DNA from: Zarea fungicola
Taxonomy: Eukaryota; Ascomycota; Sordariomycetes; Hypocreales; Cordycipitaceae
Length of the DNA stretch: 64,000 nt
NCBI GenBank assembly: GCA_900169235.1
Contig: FWCC01000269.1
Location: forward strand, 1-64,000
Direction of reading: 5' to 3'
This document shows, one piece after another, positions 2,231-45,695 of the stretch. The stretch's first letter is position 1. Every line of letters starts with the position of its first letter. The notes below the pieces were generated by a model. It worked only from the letters and a program-made list of their open reading frames with translations, had not been told where the DNA came from and searched no databases. The position numbers and the translations under genes are program-made.

Positions 2231-5200
2231 GCTGCTCCTCGCCTTTGCCATTATTCTTCTGCCCTGGCTTCAGCTCGCCGATGCCCAGCAGCAGCAGCAG
2301 CAGCAACGCAACCAAGCACCCCACGCCATCCACTCTGGCTCGCCGCACGCGAACCACGATGCACACAACGACAGGGTGTCCCTTGATGACGCCGCCCGAT
2401 GGGCAGCCTCATCCATCGACGCCGTAACCAGTCAGCCCCCCGAAGCGACCGCCGGTGCCCCCAAGTCCCGGTACACGGCGCGCGCCTCGAGCCGACAAAA
2501 CCAAAAACGCAAAATCATCAACCCCGACGATGAGAGCGCCCTCGCAACTTTAGCTCCGGCCGAGTCCGTCCGAGCACCAAGACCTCCCAGCGATCTTCGA
2601 CCCCGCAGCATTCCTGCTTCGGGGCTGACATCGACGCAGAATGCGCGGAACCTGGAGGATTGGGAAGTTGAAGACTTTGTTCTTCTGGCGACCGTCGATG
2701 GAGACTTGTATGCCAACGACCGAAACACCGGCAAGGAGCGTTGGCATCTCGAAGTCGACCTACCCATGGTCGAGACCAAGCACTACCGTAACAACAACTC
2801 GGCCGACCAAGACTACAATCCCGTGGACCACTACCTCTGGGTTGTCGAGCCAAATTCCAACGGTGGCATCTTCATCTGGCGTCCAGACCTCGAGGCCGGC
2901 CTCATCCGAACCGGCTTTACCATGAAGAGCCTCGTCGAGCAGCTCTCTCCGTACTCTGACGAGGAGGCCCAAATCGTATACACTGGTGATAAAAAGACAA
3001 CCATGGTCACCATTGATGCCGCGACGGGCCAGGTTCTTAAGTGGTTCGGATCTAGTGGTGCTCATGTCAACAGGGATGACTTTTGTCGTCAGGCGAATAC
3101 CTTTGAAGACGCCGACAATGAAGAGTGTCTGACGCGCGGAACCATCACCCTGGGCCGGACCGAGTACACTGTCGGCATTCAGGGCTCCGACAGCCGCCCC
3201 ATTGCCACTCTGAAATATTCCGAATGGGGTCCCAATACCTACGACAGTGATCTCTACCTCCAGTATCATACGTCGCTCGACAAGCGATATATTACGAGCA
3301 GACATGACGGAAAAATCTACGCATTTGATCAGTCCCGCGCGGACAAGACGACCACGCTATTTTCCAATAAATTTGCGGCCCCCGTCGCCAGTGTCTTTGA
3401 TGTTTGTCGCTCCTGGGAGACTTCTGGGTCTGGCAACAACCCACAGCTTGTAGTCCTTCCCCAGCCACCCATGCCCGCTCGCGACAAGAGCGAGAAGCTC
3501 ATGCGGTCAAACAGCATCTTTTTGAACCAGACCGAGACGGGTAGCTGGTACGCCATGTCTGGTCAGGCCTATCCCCTGATTATCGATGCTCCCTTGGCCC
3601 AAATTGCCAGCCCGGAGTGGTGGAGTATTCTGCCTTCGGTGGATACCATCAGTCAAGCCAAACTGGAGCGGGCCCTTGTGGGCAATCACTTTCTCGAATC
3701 CATCCGGGGAGACAACCACCAGTTCCCCAGTCTCCCTGGCCGGTCGGGCGAAGAAGTGGTCCAGAGACCAGCGCCCAACATGGCAACCGGAGGTGCTGAG
3801 CCGCCCGACTCCACCGACGAGCCTACCATTATTACAAAGGTCAAATCTCTTCCGCAAAGCGCTGCAAATAGTGTTGTGGATTTTGTGAGCAATCCGATTT
3901 TGATAATCCTCTTCTTCGTTGCTATTGTGTACAATCAGAAGAAGCTTCGCCGCTCATATCACAGACTTCGATCCAACGGGTTTCAAAAAGGGCTGGTGCA
4001 GGAAGTTCAAACGCTCTTCTTTTCTGAAACTTTGCCGGAAGAGAAGTCGAGCATTGTCACTGGCGAGAAACAGGATGAGGCTGTCAAGGAAGACGACGTT
4101 GTCAAGAACGAGAACGATGCTCAAGTCAAATCAGGTGATGAGCTGGCCAAGGCTGCAGAGCCGCCCACTTTGAAGGAGGAAAGTTCAGACTTGGCAGATC
4201 AACAAAAGACACCCGGCTCGGAGACCAAGGCTGGTGAGGAGCAAGCCAACGACCTGGAACCCCCCGAGACGCCTGCCAAGAGCAAGAAAAAGGCGCACCG
4301 TGGGCGACGTGGAGGCGTAAAGCACCGACCCAAGAAGCAGAGCGAGCACTCGCAGTCTCGTGGCGACGAGCCTGATGTTTCCACGGTGGAAGAGGCTGTG
4401 AAGAATGCCAAGCGGCTGGGAGACAGACCAAGCCTGCAACCCGATGTAATGACAGTGCACAACGACATGAGCGCGGTGACGAACCCAATTATGCGTATGG
4501 GCAATATTGAGGTCAATACCGAGGAGCAGCTTGGCACTGGCAGCAACGGCACTCTTGTTTTTGCAGGTCGCTTCGATGGGCGCGATGTGGCGGTGAAGCG
4601 TATGCTAATCCAGTTTTACGACATTGCCTCGCAGGAAACTAGACTGCTGCGTGAAAGCGATGACCATCCCAATGGTAAGAAAACAATACAGGTTTAAACA
4701 GCCACCAAATACTAATCACTGCCTTTTTCTTATGTTTAGTCATTCGATACTACTCTCAGCAGATTCAGGAAGGCTTTCTGTACATTGCACTGGAACGATG
4801 TGCGGCGTCTCTGGCGGATGTTGTAGAGAGACCACATCATTACCGCGAACTGGCAAACGCTGGCAGAATGGATCTTCCCGCCGTGCTGTACCAAATTACG
4901 AATGGTATTAGTCATTTGCATAATCTTCGAATTGTGCATCGTGATCTGAAGCCACAAAATATTCTGGTCAACATGGACAAGGATGGCAAGGCCAGACTTT
5001 TGGTGTCTGATTTTGGTCTATGCAAGAAGCTTGAAGGAGGCCAGTCGTCGTTTGGTGCTACTACCGGACGGGCGGCTGGTACCTCTGGCTGGCGTGCTCC
5101 AGAGTTGTTGCTGGACGACGACTCTCGTGACATTTCCATGGTGGACGCAAGCACGCATAGTGGCTCGGGCTCTGTGCTTGTTACTGATGGGTTGATGCCG

Positions 5201-5881
5201 GGCAGCCGCAGGGCAACGCGGGCCATTGATATATTCTCACTGGGACTTGTCTTTTTCTACGTCTTGACGAATGGGTCGCATCCTTTCGATTGCGGTGACA
5301 GGTACATGAGAGAGGTCAACATTCGAAAGGGCAGCTACAACCTGAACCTGCTGGACGCGCTGGGTGATTTTGCCGAGGAGGCCAAAGACTTGATTGCGTC
5401 CATGTTGGATGCGGATCCCAAGAGGCGACCGCCAGCACGGGAAGTCATGGCACATCCATTTTTCTGGTCAGCCAAGAAGAGACTGGCGTTTTTGTGTGAC
5501 GTGTCGGATCATTTTGAAAAGGAACCAAGAGATCCTCCGTCGCCGGCGCTGGCTGAGCTCGAACGACACGCTGCTCAAGTCACTAGGGGTGATTTTCTCA
5601 AGGTCCTGCCGCGCGAGTTTGTCGACTCGCTGGGCAAGCAGCGCAAGTACACGGGCTCTCGGCTGCTGGATCTTTTGCGCGCGCTGCGCAACAAGCGTAA
5701 CCACTACGAAGACATGTCGGAGAGCTTGCAGCGTTCCGTGGGACCGCTACCGGATGGATACTTGAGTTTCTGGACGACTCGATTTCCTGCCTTGCTACTT
5801 TCGTGCTGGAATGTCGTGTACAATGTTCGATGGGAGGAGACTGATCGATTCAGGGATTATTATGAGCCGGCTGGTCTGTAG
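2181..5881 (+). CDS. IRE1: IRE1 unfolded-protein sensor kinase/endoribonuclease
   Basis: Type I ER membrane protein of 1,211 residues that senses unfolded proteins and splices HAC1-type mRNA. Exons are 2181-4674 and 4740-5881; the 65-bp intron falls inside the kinase domain. A signal peptide is followed by a polyglutamine tract (CAG repeats near 2286). A beta-propeller-like luminal domain covers roughly residues 160-480 and a membrane span roughly 567-586. A Lys/Glu-rich linker then leads to a kinase with AVKRM lysine near 806, HRDLKPQN near 898 and DFG near 922. As in other fungal members, a long insert follows the APE-like motif. The C-terminal KEN nuclease region holds an RNKRNHY segment, retaining the catalytic Arg, Asn and His positions of the family. 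No key residue is missing. The ATG at 2181 is followed by a second Met codon. Confidence 0.96.
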
Positions 5882-10472: not shown

Positions 10473-12385
10473 TTACCACCATGCCGCCGAAGCATCTCGA
10501 TATACGTTTGTCCCGCAATGCACCTCACCCTGCAGCACATGATGATCAAACCAATCATCCATAGACATGACGTTGAAACCGAATTTTGCGTACGCGTCAG
10601 AAACTGCTGTTGCAAACATATCCTTGCCGCTAATGACTGGCCCCCATTGCGCAGGTGCTAGAATCTGAGAGTCGCTCAGCACGACACCATTGATAGCCCC
10701 AGGGTACAGGGCAGCCAGACGGGGGCCTTTGAACGGCGTCCCGGCCTGTCTTTTCTCTGGGGGACCAATTGGGTTGATGGCTTCTATTATCGAGAGCGGT
10801 TTCGAGAAGTGCGGCCGATCGAAATCGCTGCTTGCCATCTTCGCCCCTGTGTCATTGGCGGTGCAGGGGAAATCCTTGTCATAGTAGATTGCAGGAACGC
10901 GGAAAATATCCTCGTCTGTGAGGCCTACAGCTGCTTTAACAATGTCGATATTTTTCTGCACCCCCTTTGCCGCGTAGTCGTTAAGCTCCGTCAGGTTTGC
11001 CAGGCTCAGGACCTCGTCAATGGTAAGACTGGGCAGGCACGCCGACCCGTCGCTCGGATCCGAGGCATCTCTGCTTCGAGACACGGCCTTGACACCTCCA
11101 TGTCCAGCCCGTTGAGCATCTCTCAGCAGCTGAATACCGGCCAGCGGGTCCGCCAGCATGACGACCCAGCCGCGGCGCGTGTTGTTGGCCGGCAGGAACT
11201 GCATGTACTCGTCTGTATGTCCCACCGCAAGCCAGTCGTGGTCGAGAATGATGGGTTCCTGCGCCTCCTGCGCCCGCAGAAGCGCCATGATCCACGGATC
11301 CTGCCCGTCGTGCTGGCCCATGACGATGCGGCCGGCCGCATACGACTTGTTGCCAAGCGTGTGCGGCGGGACCGTCTCCAAGTTGCCCATTGAGTCCGTG
11401 GTTCCGCCGCGCCACATATACTGCACTGCGCCGACGGAGTCGGATCGCAGGTCTGAAAAGATTTGGCGGCCGGCGCCGCGGAACATTTGTCCTGATCGGA
11501 TATTGATGCGCAGCACGACGGGCCCGTCCAGTCCGGGAATGCTGGAGTACCCGGGCTCGAAGAAATCTTGGGCCCAAATGTCGTCGCTTTTGAAAAACTC
11601 GAAAATGGGCTTCTCAATGCCGGCCTTGCTTACGGGACCTTTTAACGACTGAGCAAATCTTTGCTGCGCAGGAGACGCGCCAGGGCTGTTGACGGTAAAG
11701 ACTTGCAGAGCACGCTGGAGGTGATGATGGGTCAGCACTGGAGCGACCCGCATGGCCACGGAGTCGCTGCCCGTCTCAGATCCGTCGGTGACGTTGAAAT
11801 GAATTTGCGCTCGACCATCCCAGACACCGGGGTACCGGACGGTGCGGCCATCGATGCCTAGCTCCAGTCCTTCTCTGAGCTGCTGCGCGGTAAAAGAAGC
11901 GTTCGCAGCAACATAGGCCCAATTCGCACCAGACTTGTGGAAAATGCGCACATTGTCTGCAGCACCGTCGCCAGAGACGGTGATGCTGCCCGTGGCCGAG
12001 TCGCTCAGCGTTTCAATGGCCAATGTGCGAAGAGGCGCGGCGTACTTGGGGTTGCGCAGGACATTGTCAGAGGCATCATTGCACATGGACAGTTCCCCAT
12101 CCAAAGTCTGATTTGTGATCTGGGCCGAGCAGCGACCGTTTGTGTCTCCAATGTTGGCGAGGAAGAGGGCGCCGGATGCTTCGGTCCATGTCGTCTTGCC
12201 AACGTCTGTTTGGTCGCTCAAGTCTATCTTGCCGTCACGATTGCTATCGGCGAGAACCGTAACATGAATCGCACTGGTTGCTCTCGCCAGGCCTTGTCAG
12301 GCATTAGAATCAGGTTCTCATGACGTTCTGGGGGCAATTGATAGATACCTAGAGCAGTAATCACAGCACTCTTCCAAGAATGCAT
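10473..12385 (-). CDS. secreted protein-arginine deiminase
   Basis: Converts peptidyl-arginine to citrulline. Exon 1 is 12385-12349 and exon 2 12292-10473; the 56-bp intron restores a signal peptide (MHSWKSAVITALGLARATSA) and gives 618 residues. The N-terminal part carries an Asp/Asn-rich LADSNRDGKIDLSD segment, likely Ca-binding. The catalytic domain keeps every key position known from animal PADs: the Asp in WAQDFFEPGY, His371 and Asp373 in GHTDEY, and Cys605 in GEVHCGTN. It should therefore be active, presumably outside the cell or in the secretory route. PADs are sparsely distributed, and fungal and actinobacterial forms are considered related, so gene transfer is possible. Without the intron the frame has no upstream ATG. 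Confidence 0.9.
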
Positions 12386-22024: not shown

Positions 22025-23548
22025 TTATACTAGACTGGGGGTCAAAGACGGCCACAAGATTCTAATATCCTCGATACCACGCTCAAACTCTTCCCCGTGA
22101 CTCTCATGGTTACCAAACAGCCCAGGAGCACATTCAGATTGTTGTGTATATGTTCGTATCAGCTTCGCAATTTTCGTCCTGCGCAATCGAACTGCAATTT
22201 GTAAACAGCTCTCGCCGGCGTCTATAGTTGCTGTTACATCAGCCCCCCATCGCAGTAGAATACGCACCATATTGACATATCCACCTGATATGGCCTCGTG
22301 GAGAGCTGTACTACCACTATCACTCTTAATCTCTGTCTTTGCGCCACGCTGCAGTAACTTTTTCGCGATGGGGACATTGTTATTCATTGCTGTGGCAATC
22401 AGGGCAGTCTTTCCCGTTTGCTCCTGCAAATTAATGTCCGCGCCATGGGCTAGTAGCAAGTCAAAAATTTCGACTCGATCATGGGCAGCGGCAAATAGCA
22501 TCGCTGTGCAGCCATCTGTAGCCGCCATGTCTACCATTGCACCACTGCTCAGCAGAGCTCTAACTGTATTTATGCTCCCTTTAGCTGTAGCGAACATTAG
22601 AGGTGTACAGTCTCCTTGGGCTCGAAAATTGATGTCAGAGCCATGCTGTATCAGAATTTCTGCTGTAGCAGGCTTGTCCTTGCATGCCGCCCATGTCAGA
22701 GCTGTGAAGCCGCTGTGTGACGCCTTATCAATGGCAGCGCCGAGGTCCAAAAGCCTAGAAACGGCCTTTGTATCACCAGCAGTGGCAGCGAGCATCAGCC
22801 CGGTCATGCCTTCATCATTGCTAGCATCAATACTTGCACCATTCATAATGAGAAGCTCCTGCGCGGCCACATTCTTGCGCATGCTTGCGATATGAAGCGG
22901 CGTGAGCCCGCTCTCAGTAGCAGCATTGCAGTCAGCGCCGGATTTAATGAGCAGTTCCATCATCTCTATGATGGAGTAAGCCGTGGCAATCATCAACGGT
23001 GTGCCGGAATCACCGTGTCTTGCATCCACCTCGGCTCCGCGCTCGAGCAGGAGCTCAACCACGTCTGTTCCAGGTGACTGCGCCCCGATATGCAGGGCCG
23101 TCCATCCACCTGCCAGTGGTAATTCGATATTGGCATTGGCGTCCAGAAGCATTTGGATAGTCGTAAGAGACCGTAAATGCACCGCCAAGTGCAGAGCGGT
23201 CTGGCCGTCGCCGTCACGCTGGTCGACATCCACGCCATCCATATTGAGAAGAGCGCCGACAGAAGTAAGCCGATGTAATCTGACGGCCAAATGAAGCAGA
23301 TTGTAGCGGCCGCAGGCCGCTACAACATTGACTCCCGCATCTAAAGCTCGGTGGAATGTCCCGATAACTTCTAGTTTCGTGGCCCATTGCAATGAATACG
23401 CCGAGCTGTCATTTCGGTATAGAATGGGGCATACGATTTCACAAAGGCGAAGGCATGTCCTACTCAGACTATTGAGATCATGTGGCCGTACGAGCTGCAG
23501 CGCGATTGCACGCAGAAGCTCGGTTGGCAGCGCCAGCATGCCCGCCAT
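22025..23548 (-). CDS. F-box/ankyrin repeat protein
   Basis: Intronless gene for 507 residues. An F-box (ALPTELLRAIALQLVRPHDL, residues about 5-45) is followed by around eleven ankyrin repeats filling residues 80-470, each with a recognisable TALH or TPLM core. Such proteins can act as substrate adaptors of SCF ubiquitin ligases, with the ankyrins choosing the target. Unlike the ankyrin protein at 37762, these repeats have diverged from each other. It converges on the glycosyltransferase, with 187 bp between the stops. The target is unknown. Confidence 0.85.
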   Translation of the reverse strand: MAGMLALPTELLRAIALQLVRPHDLNSLSRTCLRLCEIVCPILYRNDSSAYSLQWATKLEVIGTFHRALDAGVNVVAACGRYNLLHLAVRLHRLTSVGALLNMDGVDVDQRDGDGQTALHLAVHLRSLTTIQMLLDANANIELPLAGGWTALHIGAQSPGTDVVELLLERGAEVDARHGDSGTPLMIATAYSIIEMMELLIKSGADCNAATESGLTPLHIASMRKNVAAQELLIMNGASIDASNDEGMTGLMLAATAGDTKAVSRLLDLGAAIDKASHSGFTALTWAACKDKPATAEILIQHGSDINFRAQGDCTPLMFATAKGSINTVRALLSSGAMVDMAATDGCTAMLFAAAHDRVEIFDLLLAHGADINLQEQTGKTALIATAMNNNVPIAKKLLQRGAKTEIKSDSGSTALHEAISGGYVNMVRILLRWGADVTATIDAGESCLQIAVRLRRTKIAKLIRTYTQQSECAPGLFGNHESHGEEFERGIEDIRILWPSLTPSLV

Positions 23549-37761: not shown

Positions 37762-39945
37762 ATGACAACGAACGACTATAACAATCCCGACATGAACAAG
37801 CATGCTGTGTTAGAAGGCTCCGACGCAGATTCAGCCCCAAAACCAGCTGTCGAGTTTGGTGCTTCGTATGATGAACAGGCCCAGAAACTCCTTGAGGAGT
37901 ACAGCAAAGAGGAGGCAAAACAAATGTTTAGGTTCATTGCAGACGATGCAGAAGAGAGATGCAAGATCCTTCTGCGGGGGAACAAAGAAAAAAATAAAAG
38001 GGCAATAAAGGGAATAGTGACGAGCAGATTAAAGGGGGGTGATTCGCTAAAGACAAAGCTCCAAAGCGAAAATGGGAAGAAATGGCTCCTCGAATGGTTT
38101 GGAGAGCCTGACAAGGATGGCAAGAAGCAGGAGTGCTTGCTAGAACATCCAGACATGGGGGACTTCGTGGGCCTTCGCATCGGGCTATACCTCCCCGGCG
38201 ATGTAAAGGAAGTCGCGCAGAGAATCAAGGACAATTGCACAGTGCTGCATCCCTTTGGTACAGTCAGGGACCCAACACGAAAGGCTGCCGCTCTTGGAAA
38301 TAAGGAACTCATGAGACATGATCGTGGAGCGTGGGAAGAAGGTAGTGGGCCAGATGACTTCACCTGGGAGCACTATGGATACAAGTCTTGGCAGGTGGTT
38401 GTTGCATGGGACGGCAAAGGTGCAAAAGCTGTCAAAATTCCTAGCCTCTTCTTTGGAAGGCTCAGGGTGGAAATTCAGGTCGGGACGGTGGTAACGCAAG
38501 CCTGGGCGGAGGTGCAGCACAACATCATCTACAAACAACCAGAGGATATCCAAATCACGCAGACCATGAGGCACATGGTCGATGCCACCAATGGGATGGC
38601 AATCACAACCGACATTCTGCTCAGGGAATTAGAACGAAGCCAGAAAGAGGCAGAAGAGGAAGCCAAAGAGCGGCGCCAAAGGGAAATGAATCGACCAATA
38701 CTGGCACTTCTGACGTATTGTTTAAAGGGGAGCCATCGAGCGGTGGCGCGCCATTTGCAAGGAGTCGGATCTGAGATAGCTCTAGATGCCCTGCATGGCC
38801 GCGGTCACACATTTCTATGTATTGCTTCTATGGATGGCCATACTGGGGTAGTGCGTAAACTTCTCCATGCTGGAGCTAATGTGAACGTGCGCTGTTTGGA
38901 TGGAGAGACAGCACTTCATATGGCCTGTCGCTATGGTCATAGTGATGTAGTAGAACAACTTCTCCCTACAGCTAATGTGGACCTTTTAAACGATAACGAC
39001 GACACGGCGCTTTACCAGGCTGTATTTAGGGGTCATTATAATGTGGTGCAGAAGTTTCGAGTTGCAGGAGTCGACTTGAACGCTCCAATGAAGAACAGGA
39101 ACACGGCACTTCACGTGGCTTCATCGTGGGGCCATCTGAATGTGGTGAAAGAGCTTCTTCTCGCCAAGGTTGATCTAGCAATTCAAAATGATAATGAGGA
39201 GACGCCACTCCATGTAGCGTTACAAGAGAACCACCTTGAGGTGATAAAGGAACTTCTGCCTAAAGCCGATGTGATGTTCCAGGACATGTCCGGGGATACG
39301 TTGCTTCACTTAGCAACACGAAGAAACTACCTGGATGTGGTAAAGGAGCTTCTTGCTAAAGCTGATGTGACGACCAAGAACAGGGCGGGGGACACAGCGC
39401 TTCATATAGCGGCACGAGAAAACTACCCGGAAGTTGTAAAGGTACTTCTCACTAAAGCTGATGTGACGACCAAGAGCAGGGCGGGGGAGACAGCGCTTCA
39501 TATAGCGGCAAAAAGAAACTGCCTGGAAGTGGTGAAGGAACTTCTCACCAAAGCTGATGTGACGACCAAGAGCAGGGCGGGGGAGACAGCGCTTCATATA
39601 GCGGCACGACGAAACTACCCAGAAGTGGTAAAGGAACTTCTCACCAAAGGTGATTTGACGACCAGGAACGCGCTAGGGGATACAGCACTTCATATAGCGG
39701 TACGACGAAACTGCCTGGATGTAGTAAAGCTGCTGGTTTTTGACCAAGATACCGTGGCGGCTCGGGATGCTATTGGGAATACAGCACTTCATTTAGCATC
39801 AGAATTTGGCCACCGAGACGTGGTGAAAGAGCTACGTCTTGCTAAAGCCAAGATAACGGCAAGAAATTATGTTGGACAGACTGCACATGACGTCGCTGTT
39901 AAACACCATCAGAACGATGTCGCGGCGCTACTGAGGGAGGCTTAA
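37762..39945 (+). CDS. RelA/SpoT-type alarmone synthetase domain fused to ankyrin repeats
   Basis: Intronless gene for 727 residues. Residues about 45-285 match the RelA/SpoT nucleotidyltransferase fold that makes (p)ppGpp-type alarmones: Arg89-Lys91 in SRLKGGDSLKTK, Asp134 in DFVGLR, Tyr207 in GYKSW, Glu237 and Gln239 in VEIQVGT, then AWAEVQHNIIYK. No HD hydrolase domain is present, as in small alarmone synthetases. Two usually conserved positions differ: the His of the GYxSxH motif is Gln211, and the Arg after EIQ-hydrophobic is Gly241. A charged helix (about 295-320) links to roughly 12 ankyrin repeats (340-727). There is no signal peptide or membrane span. Known fungal NLR-type proteins join varied effector domains to repeat sensors; this one has the repeat sensor without an NTPase. 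The effector role and any trigger are inference. Confidence 0.88.
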   Translation: MTTNDYNNPDMNKHAVLEGSDADSAPKPAVEFGASYDEQAQKLLEEYSKEEAKQMFRFIADDAEERCKILLRGNKEKNKRAIKGIVTSRLKGGDSLKTKLQSENGKKWLLEWFGEPDKDGKKQECLLEHPDMGDFVGLRIGLYLPGDVKEVAQRIKDNCTVLHPFGTVRDPTRKAAALGNKELMRHDRGAWEEGSGPDDFTWEHYGYKSWQVVVAWDGKGAKAVKIPSLFFGRLRVEIQVGTVVTQAWAEVQHNIIYKQPEDIQITQTMRHMVDATNGMAITTDILLRELERSQKEAEEEAKERRQREMNRPILALLTYCLKGSHRAVARHLQGVGSEIALDALHGRGHTFLCIASMDGHTGVVRKLLHAGANVNVRCLDGETALHMACRYGHSDVVEQLLPTANVDLLNDNDDTALYQAVFRGHYNVVQKFRVAGVDLNAPMKNRNTALHVASSWGHLNVVKELLLAKVDLAIQNDNEETPLHVALQENHLEVIKELLPKADVMFQDMSGDTLLHLATRRNYLDVVKELLAKADVTTKNRAGDTALHIAARENYPEVVKVLLTKADVTTKSRAGETALHIAAKRNCLEVVKELLTKADVTTKSRAGETALHIAARRNYPEVVKELLTKGDLTTRNALGDTALHIAVRRNCLDVVKLLVFDQDTVAARDAIGNTALHLASEFGHRDVVKELRLAKAKITARNYVGQTAHDVAVKHHQNDVAALLREA
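39361..39648 (+). repeat. near-identical 96-bp ankyrin-coding repeats
   Basis: Three head-to-tail 96-bp units (starting 39361, 39457 and 39553, each at GCTGATGTGACG) encode 32-residue ankyrin repeats. Units two and three differ at about seven of 96 positions by eye. A fourth, more divergent unit starts at 39649. Synonymous sites are as conserved as the rest, which points to recent duplication or gene conversion and not to protein-level selection alone. Confidence 0.85.
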
Positions 39946-43214: not shown

Positions 43215-45695
43215 ATGCCGGAAGACGCCGGATCCTCACCAGGAGGAGGTGGCAGCAGCCAGGCTACTCGCGGCCAAGGCAATCGCAACAGAGGAAGAGG
43301 AGATCGCAGTGGTCAGAGCCGTGGTGGTGCCAGTGGTGCCAGTGGTGCCACCGGCGGTGGTGGCAGACGGGGCCGTGGTGGACGCAATCGTGGAGGCAGA
43401 CAGGACGGTTTGCCCGCAGAGCCTGCTGCGCAACATGTCGCTGCTGCTGCTCGGGCCGCCAAGGAGGAAGCTGCAGTCAATGCCATTGCAGCTCCAGCTC
43501 ACAAGGCCACGCAAAAGGCCGATGATGGTGACGACGACGATGACGCCGAAGTCTGCTTCATCTGTGCCAATCCTGTAGCCCACCACTCCATTGCACCCTG
43601 CAACCACACAACCTGCCACATCTGCGGTCTACGCATGCGAGCCCTCTACAAGACCAAGGACTGTGCCCATTGCAGAGTAAGTAGAAGAGTGTCCCCACAG
43701 TCGATGTAGACGAGTTGCTAACTTCACTACCAGACCGAAGCCCCGTACGTCATCTTCACAGACGACCCAGAGAAGCGATTCGAAGACTACAAGAACACCG
43801 ACATTACCACTGTCGACACCAACATTGGCATCAAGTACACCAATGAAGACATTGTCGGCGACACGGTGCTTCTCCTGCGCTACAACTGCCCCGACGCCTC
43901 GTGCGACTTTGCTGGCCTCGGCTGGCCCGACCTACACCGTCACGTCAAGTCGGCCCACAAGAAACGCATGTGCGACTTGTGCACGCGCAACAAAAAAGTC
44001 TTTACACACGAGCATGAGCTCTTTTTAGACCGCGACCTCGAGAAGCACATGCGTCGTGGCGACGACAAGCCTGGTGCCGCCGACCAGACCGGGTTCAAGG
44101 GCCACCCACTCTGTGGCTTCTGCGGCGAGCGCTTCTATGATGATGACAAGCTCTATGAGCACTGTCGCATGAAGCATGAGCGATGCTTCCTTTGCGATCG
44201 CCGCGACTCGCGGAAACCACACTACTTTGTCGACTACAACGCCTTGGAGCAGCACTTTAAGAAGGACCACTACCTGTGCAACGACAGAGAGTGCACCGAG
44301 AAGAAGTTCGTCGTCTTCGAGTCAGAAATGGATTTACAGGCCCACAACTTGGCTGAGCATGCCGGAGGCAAGACGGTCGGCCGCGATGCCAGAGTCGTCG
44401 ACATGTCGGGCTTTGACCTGAGGCAATCATATCAAAACGAGAGACGCGGAGGCGGTGGCGGTGGCGGAAGAGACGGCGAGGGACGGGGACGAGGGGGACG
44501 AGGTCGCGGACGGGGTAGGGACCCCAACGAAGAACCAGTGCCTCCTGCCTATGCGCAACCGCTGCGACGAGACGAGATTGCCTTTCAGCGACAAATGGCC
44601 ATTCACTCTGCCCAATCCGTATCCCAGCGTACCTTTGGCGGCCAGTTATCCGCTCCCACACCGGCAGCCGCTTCTGCAGGCCGTGGCGGCGCCTCCCCTC
44701 GCAACGGGAGCTCTGCCAACACGCCCAAAGTCGGCCCCTCGGCCAACAACAGCATCACCGATCCAATGGAGACGCTGTCCCTCAGCGACACGGCCAACAT
44801 GACGCCCGAGGACCGCGCACGTCTGGTCCGCCACAGCTCCGTCATTGAGCGCGCTGCCAACCTCCTCGGCAACGACGCCAGCAAGATTGCCAGTTTCCGC
44901 CAAAACATTTCCGCCTACCAGCGTGGCTCCCTGGCTGCGCCACAGCTGATTGACGCCTTTTTCACGCTCTTTGCCGACGTTTCTTCAAATGCGCTTGGTA
45001 CCATGACGCGCGAGGTGGCCGATCTGTTTGAGAACAAGACCAAGGCGGACAACCTTCGCCAGGCGTGGCAGGACTGGCGCGCCATCAATGAGGACTACCC
45101 GAGCCTGCCTGGCCTGAGCGGCATGCAGGGGGAGACGTCGAGCTCGAGCGGATGGGCCAACGCCGCCGCCGCCAACCCGGCCGCCCCGTACGGCGCCCCT
45201 GCGCAGAAGCACTCGAACCGCGTGCTCAAGCTCAAGAACAGCACGCGTCTAGCGGGGCCGGCGCCAGTGGTGGCAACGAAGCCGCCAGGCTGGGCACCCG
45301 CCGCCGTGGCACCGCCCTCGAGTCGTCCACCTGCATCATCGTCCTTTCCAGCGCTTGCAAAGGCGGGCCCTTCATCCAAGTCTGGCGGCGCCTCTTCTTC
45401 TTCCTCACGCCCAGGATGGGTAGCAGCCTCGTCCCAGGCCGCGGCTTCTAGAGCGGCCGCGCGCAGTGGTGGCGAAGATGCGTTCCCCGCGCTGCCGGCG
45501 GCACCCAAACCGACGACGACGATTTTTGGTTATGGCGGCGGTCGCGGCGTGCGTCGCGACTATGGCCACGCCGAGTCCAACTTTCAATGGGGCGGCGGTG
45601 CGCCGGAGGCTACACCGACCGATTTAAGCGATGCGGATGACGCCAAGGGCAAGAAGGGCAAGAAGGGTAAAAAGGTTCTTGTGCAGTGGGGATAA
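43215..45695 (+). CDS. HEL2: Hel2/ZNF598-type RING E3 ubiquitin ligase
   Basis: Ribosome-quality-control ligase that ubiquitinates 40S proteins on collided ribosomes. Exons 43215-43676 and 43734-45695 give 807 residues. An RGG-rich, Gly-rich N-terminus is followed by a RING finger at residues 114-153 (CFICANPVAHHSIAPCNH, then CHICGLRMRAL, then CAHC); the 57-bp intron lies just after the last RING cysteine. Several C2H2-like fingers follow (CDFAGLGWPDLHRHVKSAH, CGFCGERFYDDDKLYEHCRMKH, CNDRECTEKKF). A second RGG-like stretch, a helical block near residue 500-560 and a low-complexity Ala/Ser/Pro tail ending KKGKKVLVQWG complete the family layout. Named from this domain order, not from alignment. 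Confidence 0.92.

Follow-up and report, generated by a model that had tools for sequence, protein, structure and literature searches.

A RelA/SpoT-type synthetase domain joined to ankyrin repeats in Zarea fungicola: a fungal family with an altered acceptor side and a possible sensor-effector role

Introduction

What could a RelA/SpoT-type synthetase domain do in a fungus when it is joined to a long array of ankyrin repeats? The question is raised by a gene of Zarea fungicola (contig FWCC01000269.1, assembly GCA_900169235.1), which lies at 37762..39945 on the + strand of the 64,000-nucleotide stretch analysed here (the window) and forms one open frame of 727 amino acids. A sequence-only reading of this DNA had described such a fusion and interpreted it as a sensor-effector for non-self or stress recognition. 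The observation itself, a synthetase-type domain followed by ankyrin repeats, is confirmed, and the interpretation as a whole is partly supported. The protein belongs to a real and conserved fungal family and is a variant of something known, not a new type.

The novelty attached to the finding fell, as ascomycete RelA/SpoT-type synthetases had been reported already in 2011, 2012 and 2014. As far as the accessible text of these sources goes, they list synthetases without a hydrolase in Ascomycota and propose Nudix as a possible hydrolase (PMC3153485), describe the Podospora nucleotide-binding oligomerization domain (NOD)-like receptor (NLR) NWD5 with a RelA/SpoT-type N-terminal domain (PMC3321046), and treat RelA/SpoT as a class of NLR effector (PMC4986451; likewise PMC12258605, PMC10197012, PMC9815663). 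Automatic annotation already labels such proteins "ankyrin repeat protein/ppGpp synthetase." Among the papers listed by the literature search, none described a RelA-ankyrin fusion without a NOD, most subscription journals lying outside its coverage.

Domain Architecture

The synthetase-type domain occupies residues 28-315 (37843..38706; all coordinates given for this gene are on the + strand) according to the family profile match. Pfam PF04607 aligns at residues 89-260 with 24.8 bits, below the curated cut-off of 27; in ten other family members the same profile scored above the cut-off eight times and below it in P0003 (25.7) and P0111 (26.4). The fold prediction that the sequence-only reading had called for was run, and residues 25-323 matched RelQ/RelP, a nucleotidyltransferase-type synthetase fold. 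No hydrolase domain is present in the protein, as had been claimed, and the proposed array of about 12 ankyrin repeats came to 12 when counted from Pfam matches and repeat anchors (about residues 347-727; 38800..39942). In a profile search of the PDB with A1, ankyrin matches dominated the rows shown.

Catalytic and Acceptor Sites

In RelP and RelQ, Arg78 and Arg112 stack on the adenine, Lys80, Ser84, Lys88 and Arg91 touch the phosphates, Asp107 and Glu174 bind Mg, His190 contacts the ribose and Tyr151 is critical in guanosine binding (PMC5794853, accessible part). Equivalents were assigned by motif and spacing, and their conservation was read from an alignment of the window protein and 62 relatives (63 rows). 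By this analogy, Arg78, Lys80, Ser84 and Lys88 correspond to R89, K91, S95 and K99 of the motif R89-x-K91-x3-S95-x3-K99 (38026..38058), found in 58, 59, 57 and 58 rows, respectively. Asp107 and Arg112 correspond to D134 and R139 of D134-F-V-G-L-R139 (38161..38178), each in 63/63 rows. Glu237, which had been proposed as a catalytic candidate, aligns with Glu174 and is kept in 62 rows with one gap; H253 (His190) is kept in 62 and Y207 (Tyr151) in 63, the remainder at all these positions being mostly gaps. From this pattern we infer that ATP use has been retained.

The acceptor side differs. The motif Y207-K-S-W-Q211 (38380..38394) keeps the stacking Tyr and replaces the His of the bacterial YxSxH motif with Gln, with Y, W and Q each present in 63/63 rows. 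In the motif E237-I-Q-V-G241-T (38470..38487), the Mg-binding Glu is kept and the Arg of EIQxRT becomes Gly (62/63, with one gap). A wider set of 117 proteins (the window protein and 116 relatives) gives the same picture: the His site holds Gln in 114 of the 115 proteins that cover it and Leu in one, GY[KR][SP]WQ occurs in 110 and GYESWQ in four, and E[ILV]Q[VILF]GT occurs in 113 and EIQxRT in none. These motif counts are biased, since the relatives were gathered through shared 5-residue words, a procedure that favours sequences with common conserved motifs. The His stands in all six bacterial or phage relatives compared, which come from five plasmid records and one phage, and the Arg in 4/6; the change of the His is therefore more telling than that of the Arg.

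The loop on the acceptor side (residues 168-206; 38263..38379), delimited from model and alignment, is also longer. The span from the Mg-binding Asp to the stacking Tyr measures 69-79 residues in 108 fungal proteins (median 73), against 44, 45, 48, 48 and 51 in five bacterial or phage relatives and 49, judged by eye, in L017. G166, R173, H186, G189, W191, W202 and H204 are near-invariant in the longer fungal form (59-63 of 63 rows). Judged from sequence, two bacterial acceptor-side hallmarks, the YxSxH His and the EIQxRT Arg, are lost across the family. The acceptor may thus be other than plain GDP or GTP and the product may not be the bacterial alarmone; (p)ppGpp as product is unproven because the acceptor-side residues differ across the whole family.

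Ankyrin Repeats and a Possible Switch

Three of the ankyrin repeats are near-identical and in tandem (residues 541-637, anchors 545, 577 and 609; 39382..39672), with a DNA identity of 89%, protein identities of 75.8-81.8% and a ratio of nonsynonymous to synonymous change (dN/dS) of about 0.7-0.9. Such tandem repeats are a sign of repeat duplication, probably fairly recent. When compared with 18 other ankyrin frames holding at least four anchored repeats, taken from the 20 best-matching loci of the genome, the window gene ranks first by the number of repeat pairs at ≥85% (3).

The full-length model (pLDDT 80.0, pTM 0.62) contains one continuous predicted helix over residues 267-322 (38560..38727), which leads from the synthetase domain to the start of the ankyrin array; D274, N277 and L290 within it are found in 63/63 alignment rows and E289 in 62/63. 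The acceptor loop before Tyr207 is modelled with a pLDDT below 50 over much of its length. During activation of RelQ, the last helix (alpha5) touches and orders the substrate loop, or G-loop, as described in the accessible text of PMC5794853. Because the loop is of low confidence, the helix leads into the repeats and alpha5 of RelQ orders the G-loop, we infer that the helix, as the alpha5 equivalent, could act as a switch through which binding at the repeats would order the acceptor loop.

We tentatively favour, at a level of belief just short of even, a RelA-like enzyme with an ankyrin sensor: binding of a ligand to the repeats would turn on the transfer of pyrophosphate from ATP to an acceptor, either a nucleotide or RNA, and growth arrest would follow from this transfer. 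The trigger would be non-self or stress, a suggestion that comes from the NLR literature. A more specific version seems doubtful: a eukaryotic one-chain immune switch resembling CapRel, in which the ankyrin repeats would sense a non-self or stress ligand and the helix would activate a pyrophosphokinase with a rebuilt acceptor site, which would modify a new acceptor (such as the CCA end of tRNA or an adenine nucleotide) and stop growth without reversal by a RelA/SpoT-type hydrolase. An immune role is unproven.

Relation to Known Systems

The architecture does resemble that of sensor-effector proteins, as had been proposed. NWD5 and other fungal RelA_SpoT-NACHT NLRs share with the window protein an N-terminal RelA/SpoT-type domain before superstructure-forming repeats; in the accessible descriptions, they differ from it by owning a NACHT NOD together with WD40 or other repeats (PMC3321046, PMC4986451, PMC12258605). 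C-terminal superstructure-forming repeats, which serve as a criterion for fungal NLRs, are present here as the 12 ankyrin repeats. We rejected the assignment of the window protein as an NLR proper, as it has neither a NOD domain nor, among the 2248 candidates searched, relatives of NLR length. The divRel small alarmone synthetases of filamentous ascomycetes likewise combine a synthetase domain with the lack of a hydrolase, but the main text of PMC3153485 does not contain the word ankyrin, nor do the passages of it that were examined describe the acceptor-site change. Compared with RelQ and RelP, the window protein has the YxSxH His and EIQxRT Arg replaced, a longer acceptor-side loop, an extended alpha5 in its model and an ankyrin tail. 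CapRel, a fused toxin-antitoxin tRNA pyrophosphokinase that senses phage, also unites an RSH-type enzyme and a sensor in one chain (PMC11782079, accessible part). Human RNase L has an unrelated enzyme, and the comparison is an analogy only, as ankyrin arrays generally match one another. Toxic small alarmone synthetases (toxSAS; PMC11782079, PMC11559606), exported synthetases (PMC12691689) and further aspects of the subject (PMC7983052, PMC3482391) are treated elsewhere.

If the enzyme is active, the family would represent a large and little-studied class of RelA-type effectors in filamentous fungi, in which the acceptor site has changed and the C-terminal parts are exchangeable; it would also give bacterial toxSAS/CapRel defence a eukaryotic counterpart. 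Two old questions would then become testable, namely the existence of magic-spot nucleotides in fungi and the action of triggered RelA-type NLR-like effectors.

Weighing the Alternatives

Several points weigh against a ligand-triggered sensor-effector. The equivalent of the phosphate-touching Arg91 of RelP, position 102, is variable (D 28, G 13, S 5 and V 5 of 63 rows). The near-neutral dN/dS of the repeats is equally compatible with relaxed selection and with diversification. A published mark of "high internal conservation" for NLR repeats, reached by a minority of NLRs, is 85% amino acid identity over 100 amino acids (PMC4986451, accessible part), and the best repeat pair here stays under it at 81.8%. 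Among the other ankyrin frames, L028 and L035 exceed the window gene in pairs at ≥75% (8 vs 6), and the best pair of L038 is higher (0.93 vs 0.91). No NACHT or NB-ARC Pfam match was found in the window protein at E ≤ 1, and none of 2248 candidate proteins of about 800-2544 residues carried the same domain at E ≤ 0.001. The ankyrin repeats could serve localisation alone. Finally, the literature and data examined contain nothing on the enzymatic activity, ligands, expression or phenotypes of any family member.

Among the other explanations, a fungal stringent-response enzyme that makes (p)ppGpp on starvation, with ankyrins that merely position it or bind a metabolic partner, strikes us as unlikely. 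It would account for the small alarmone synthetase fold, the ATP site and the guanine-stacking Tyr207 in 63/63 rows, but not for the uniform change of the YxSxH His to Gln or the longer acceptor loop. The HD_4 hydrolase that would reset the signal had no match in the six-frame search of the assembly, though a Nudix enzyme could substitute, and the varied tails, the repeat duplication and the decayed copy described below are unlike a core stress regulator. The two lost acceptor-side residues and the variable Arg91 position would also suit a catalytically dead relative serving as a binding scaffold. We consider this distinctly improbable: the Mg-binding Asp and Glu, the adenine-stacking Args and the stacking Tyr persist in 58-63 of 63 rows, none of which a dead enzyme would need, and the EIQxRT Arg is missing from 2/6 bacterial or phage relatives as well. 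That the gene is degenerating or selfish, with no present role, would agree with a broken second copy (C308) and with near-neutral repeat dN/dS, yet the window copy is open across 727 codons with its ATP-site residues conserved, and we give this reading little credence.

Least credible of all is an antibacterial enzyme, by which the fungus would make alarmone against bacterial rivals or symbionts, as was suggested for fungal RelA_SpoT NLRs in the accessible text of PMC4986451. The N-terminus of the window protein, judged by eye, has no hydrophobic export signal. Ankyrin repeats are mostly intracellular, which also counts against this role. Podospora anserina, moreover, has only one Rel-Spo NLR, which is induced in vegetative incompatibility (1/1) and not by bacteria (PMC4835503, accessible part).

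Evolution of the Fusion

A survey of relatives for the same fusion, which the sequence-only reading had proposed, recovered it in part of the family. The counts exclude seven ankyrin-only matches (P0118-P0124), and of the 126 matches, six stood outside the listing. A domain match spanning about 235 residues or more was found in 104 of the 117 proteins. Behind the domain, 31 of them have ankyrins, 59 have a different tail and 14 have little or nothing. In many relatives, among them the non-ankyrin members P0041 and P0063, a tail takes the place of the ankyrins and is often about 90-130 residues long; the tails of P0041, P0048, P0049 and P0058 gave no Pfam match at E ≤ 0.01.

In a tree of 107 rows (the 104 and three for the outgroup), a single group of 33 (SH-aLRT 100) takes in every ankyrin row but one (30 of 31), and its other three members are bare. 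The remaining ankyrin row, P0047 of Sarcosagium campestre, is placed among tailed proteins. A tree of 88 rows, which omits the 14 bare, two long-branch and three outgroup rows, groups P0047 with six tailed proteins (group of seven, support 100/99) and needs two changes. On this tree, a single ankyrin clade was rejected (approximately unbiased test, p 0.00162), with a bootstrap not fully settled and with trait groups that were fixed before any tree, the 107-row tree having already been seen before the test. As judged from these trees, at least two separate events joined ankyrin repeats to the domain, or else a single one that was followed by loss and regain.

A bacterial donor was sought. A scan of genome contigs yielded 32 pattern matches, none of which was confirmed as a relative, and tblastn against phages gave marginal matches only (best E 0.02). 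With the Fusarium member P0041 as query, tblastn against plasmids gave distant matches in 14 records (best E 2e-10, Azospirillum); five of these and one phage record were compared by sequence. The window domain had no match in PADLOC, where one of two relatives gave a weak one (PDC-S33, E 0.0035), and the PHROGs match was to phrog_9640, a family of unknown function (E 1.4e-7). Recent horizontal transfer was considered and set aside, the GC content of 0.498 against 0.504 for the window giving no clear sign of it. The GC content at third codon positions (0.504) is the lowest of the nine open reading frames compared, followed by an F-box ankyrin frame at 0.508.

Related Loci in the Genome

Two further RelA-type loci were found in the genome. 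The RelA-ankyrin relative on C308 (L014, about 4025-5515, + strand) is decayed: its frame changes and in-line stops interrupt it, one of them within the conserved EIQVGT motif. It is nearest to a Zarea fungicola protein (59-63% over its two main pieces, vs 43-52% to the window protein). Repeat-induced point mutation was rejected as the cause, as its indices are near those of the window. A HET-domain gene (L014:1294-3357, - strand) lies about 0.7-0.9 kb away and is apparently intact, with one intron; the idea that it is broken was dropped, since its stops fall in an ordinary-looking intron with GTAAGT and CAG ends. The gene on C389 (L013:833-3265, - strand; 810-aa frame, Pfam 38 bits) is of another type: it keeps the His (YSALH), has EIQICT and an Asp-to-Tyr span of 77, and lacks a Pfam ankyrin match. 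By eye, its core reads like the Azospirillum plasmid protein (L015), which looks closer to it than to the window gene. A PF04607 match on C266 was discarded (E 0.0857, below the cut-off, profile positions 11-87 only), its frame reading by eye as a NACHT-type NLR.

Nudix genes accompany both loci. One on C389 (L013:4471-5073, + strand) is divergent from the RelA-type gene and about 1.2 kb from it, and one on C308 (L014:596-1168, + strand) lies, like the HET gene, within about 3 kb of the decayed copy. With 16 Nudix matches in the 43-Mb genome, the chance of one inside 5 kb at two of three RelA-type loci is 4e-5, in a test conceived post hoc. The window's own contig gave no Nudix match. Neither Nudix gene has the other as its closest match in the genome, C263 being the best for both. 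The nearby Nudix hydrolases are candidate clearing enzymes for the RelA product. A six-frame search of the 43.1-Mb assembly for HD_4, the RelA/SpoT hydrolase, found none; controls were positive in 10/14 genomes, split genes can escape such a search and the assembly may be incomplete.

Neighboring Genes in the Window

The window holds a second ankyrin gene (22025-23548, - strand), whose product joins the repeats to an F-box-like domain slightly below the Pfam cut-off. A protein-arginine deiminase (PAD) is encoded at 10473-12221 (- strand; Pfam E 6e-103), here in a fungus. Kinase and Ribonuc_2-5A domains are combined at 4868-5881 (+ strand), in a product that we take to be Ire1-like, and a ZNF598-like protein with PAH_ZNF598 and C2H2 domains, presumably of the ribosome-quality-control type, is encoded at 43866-45695 (+ strand).
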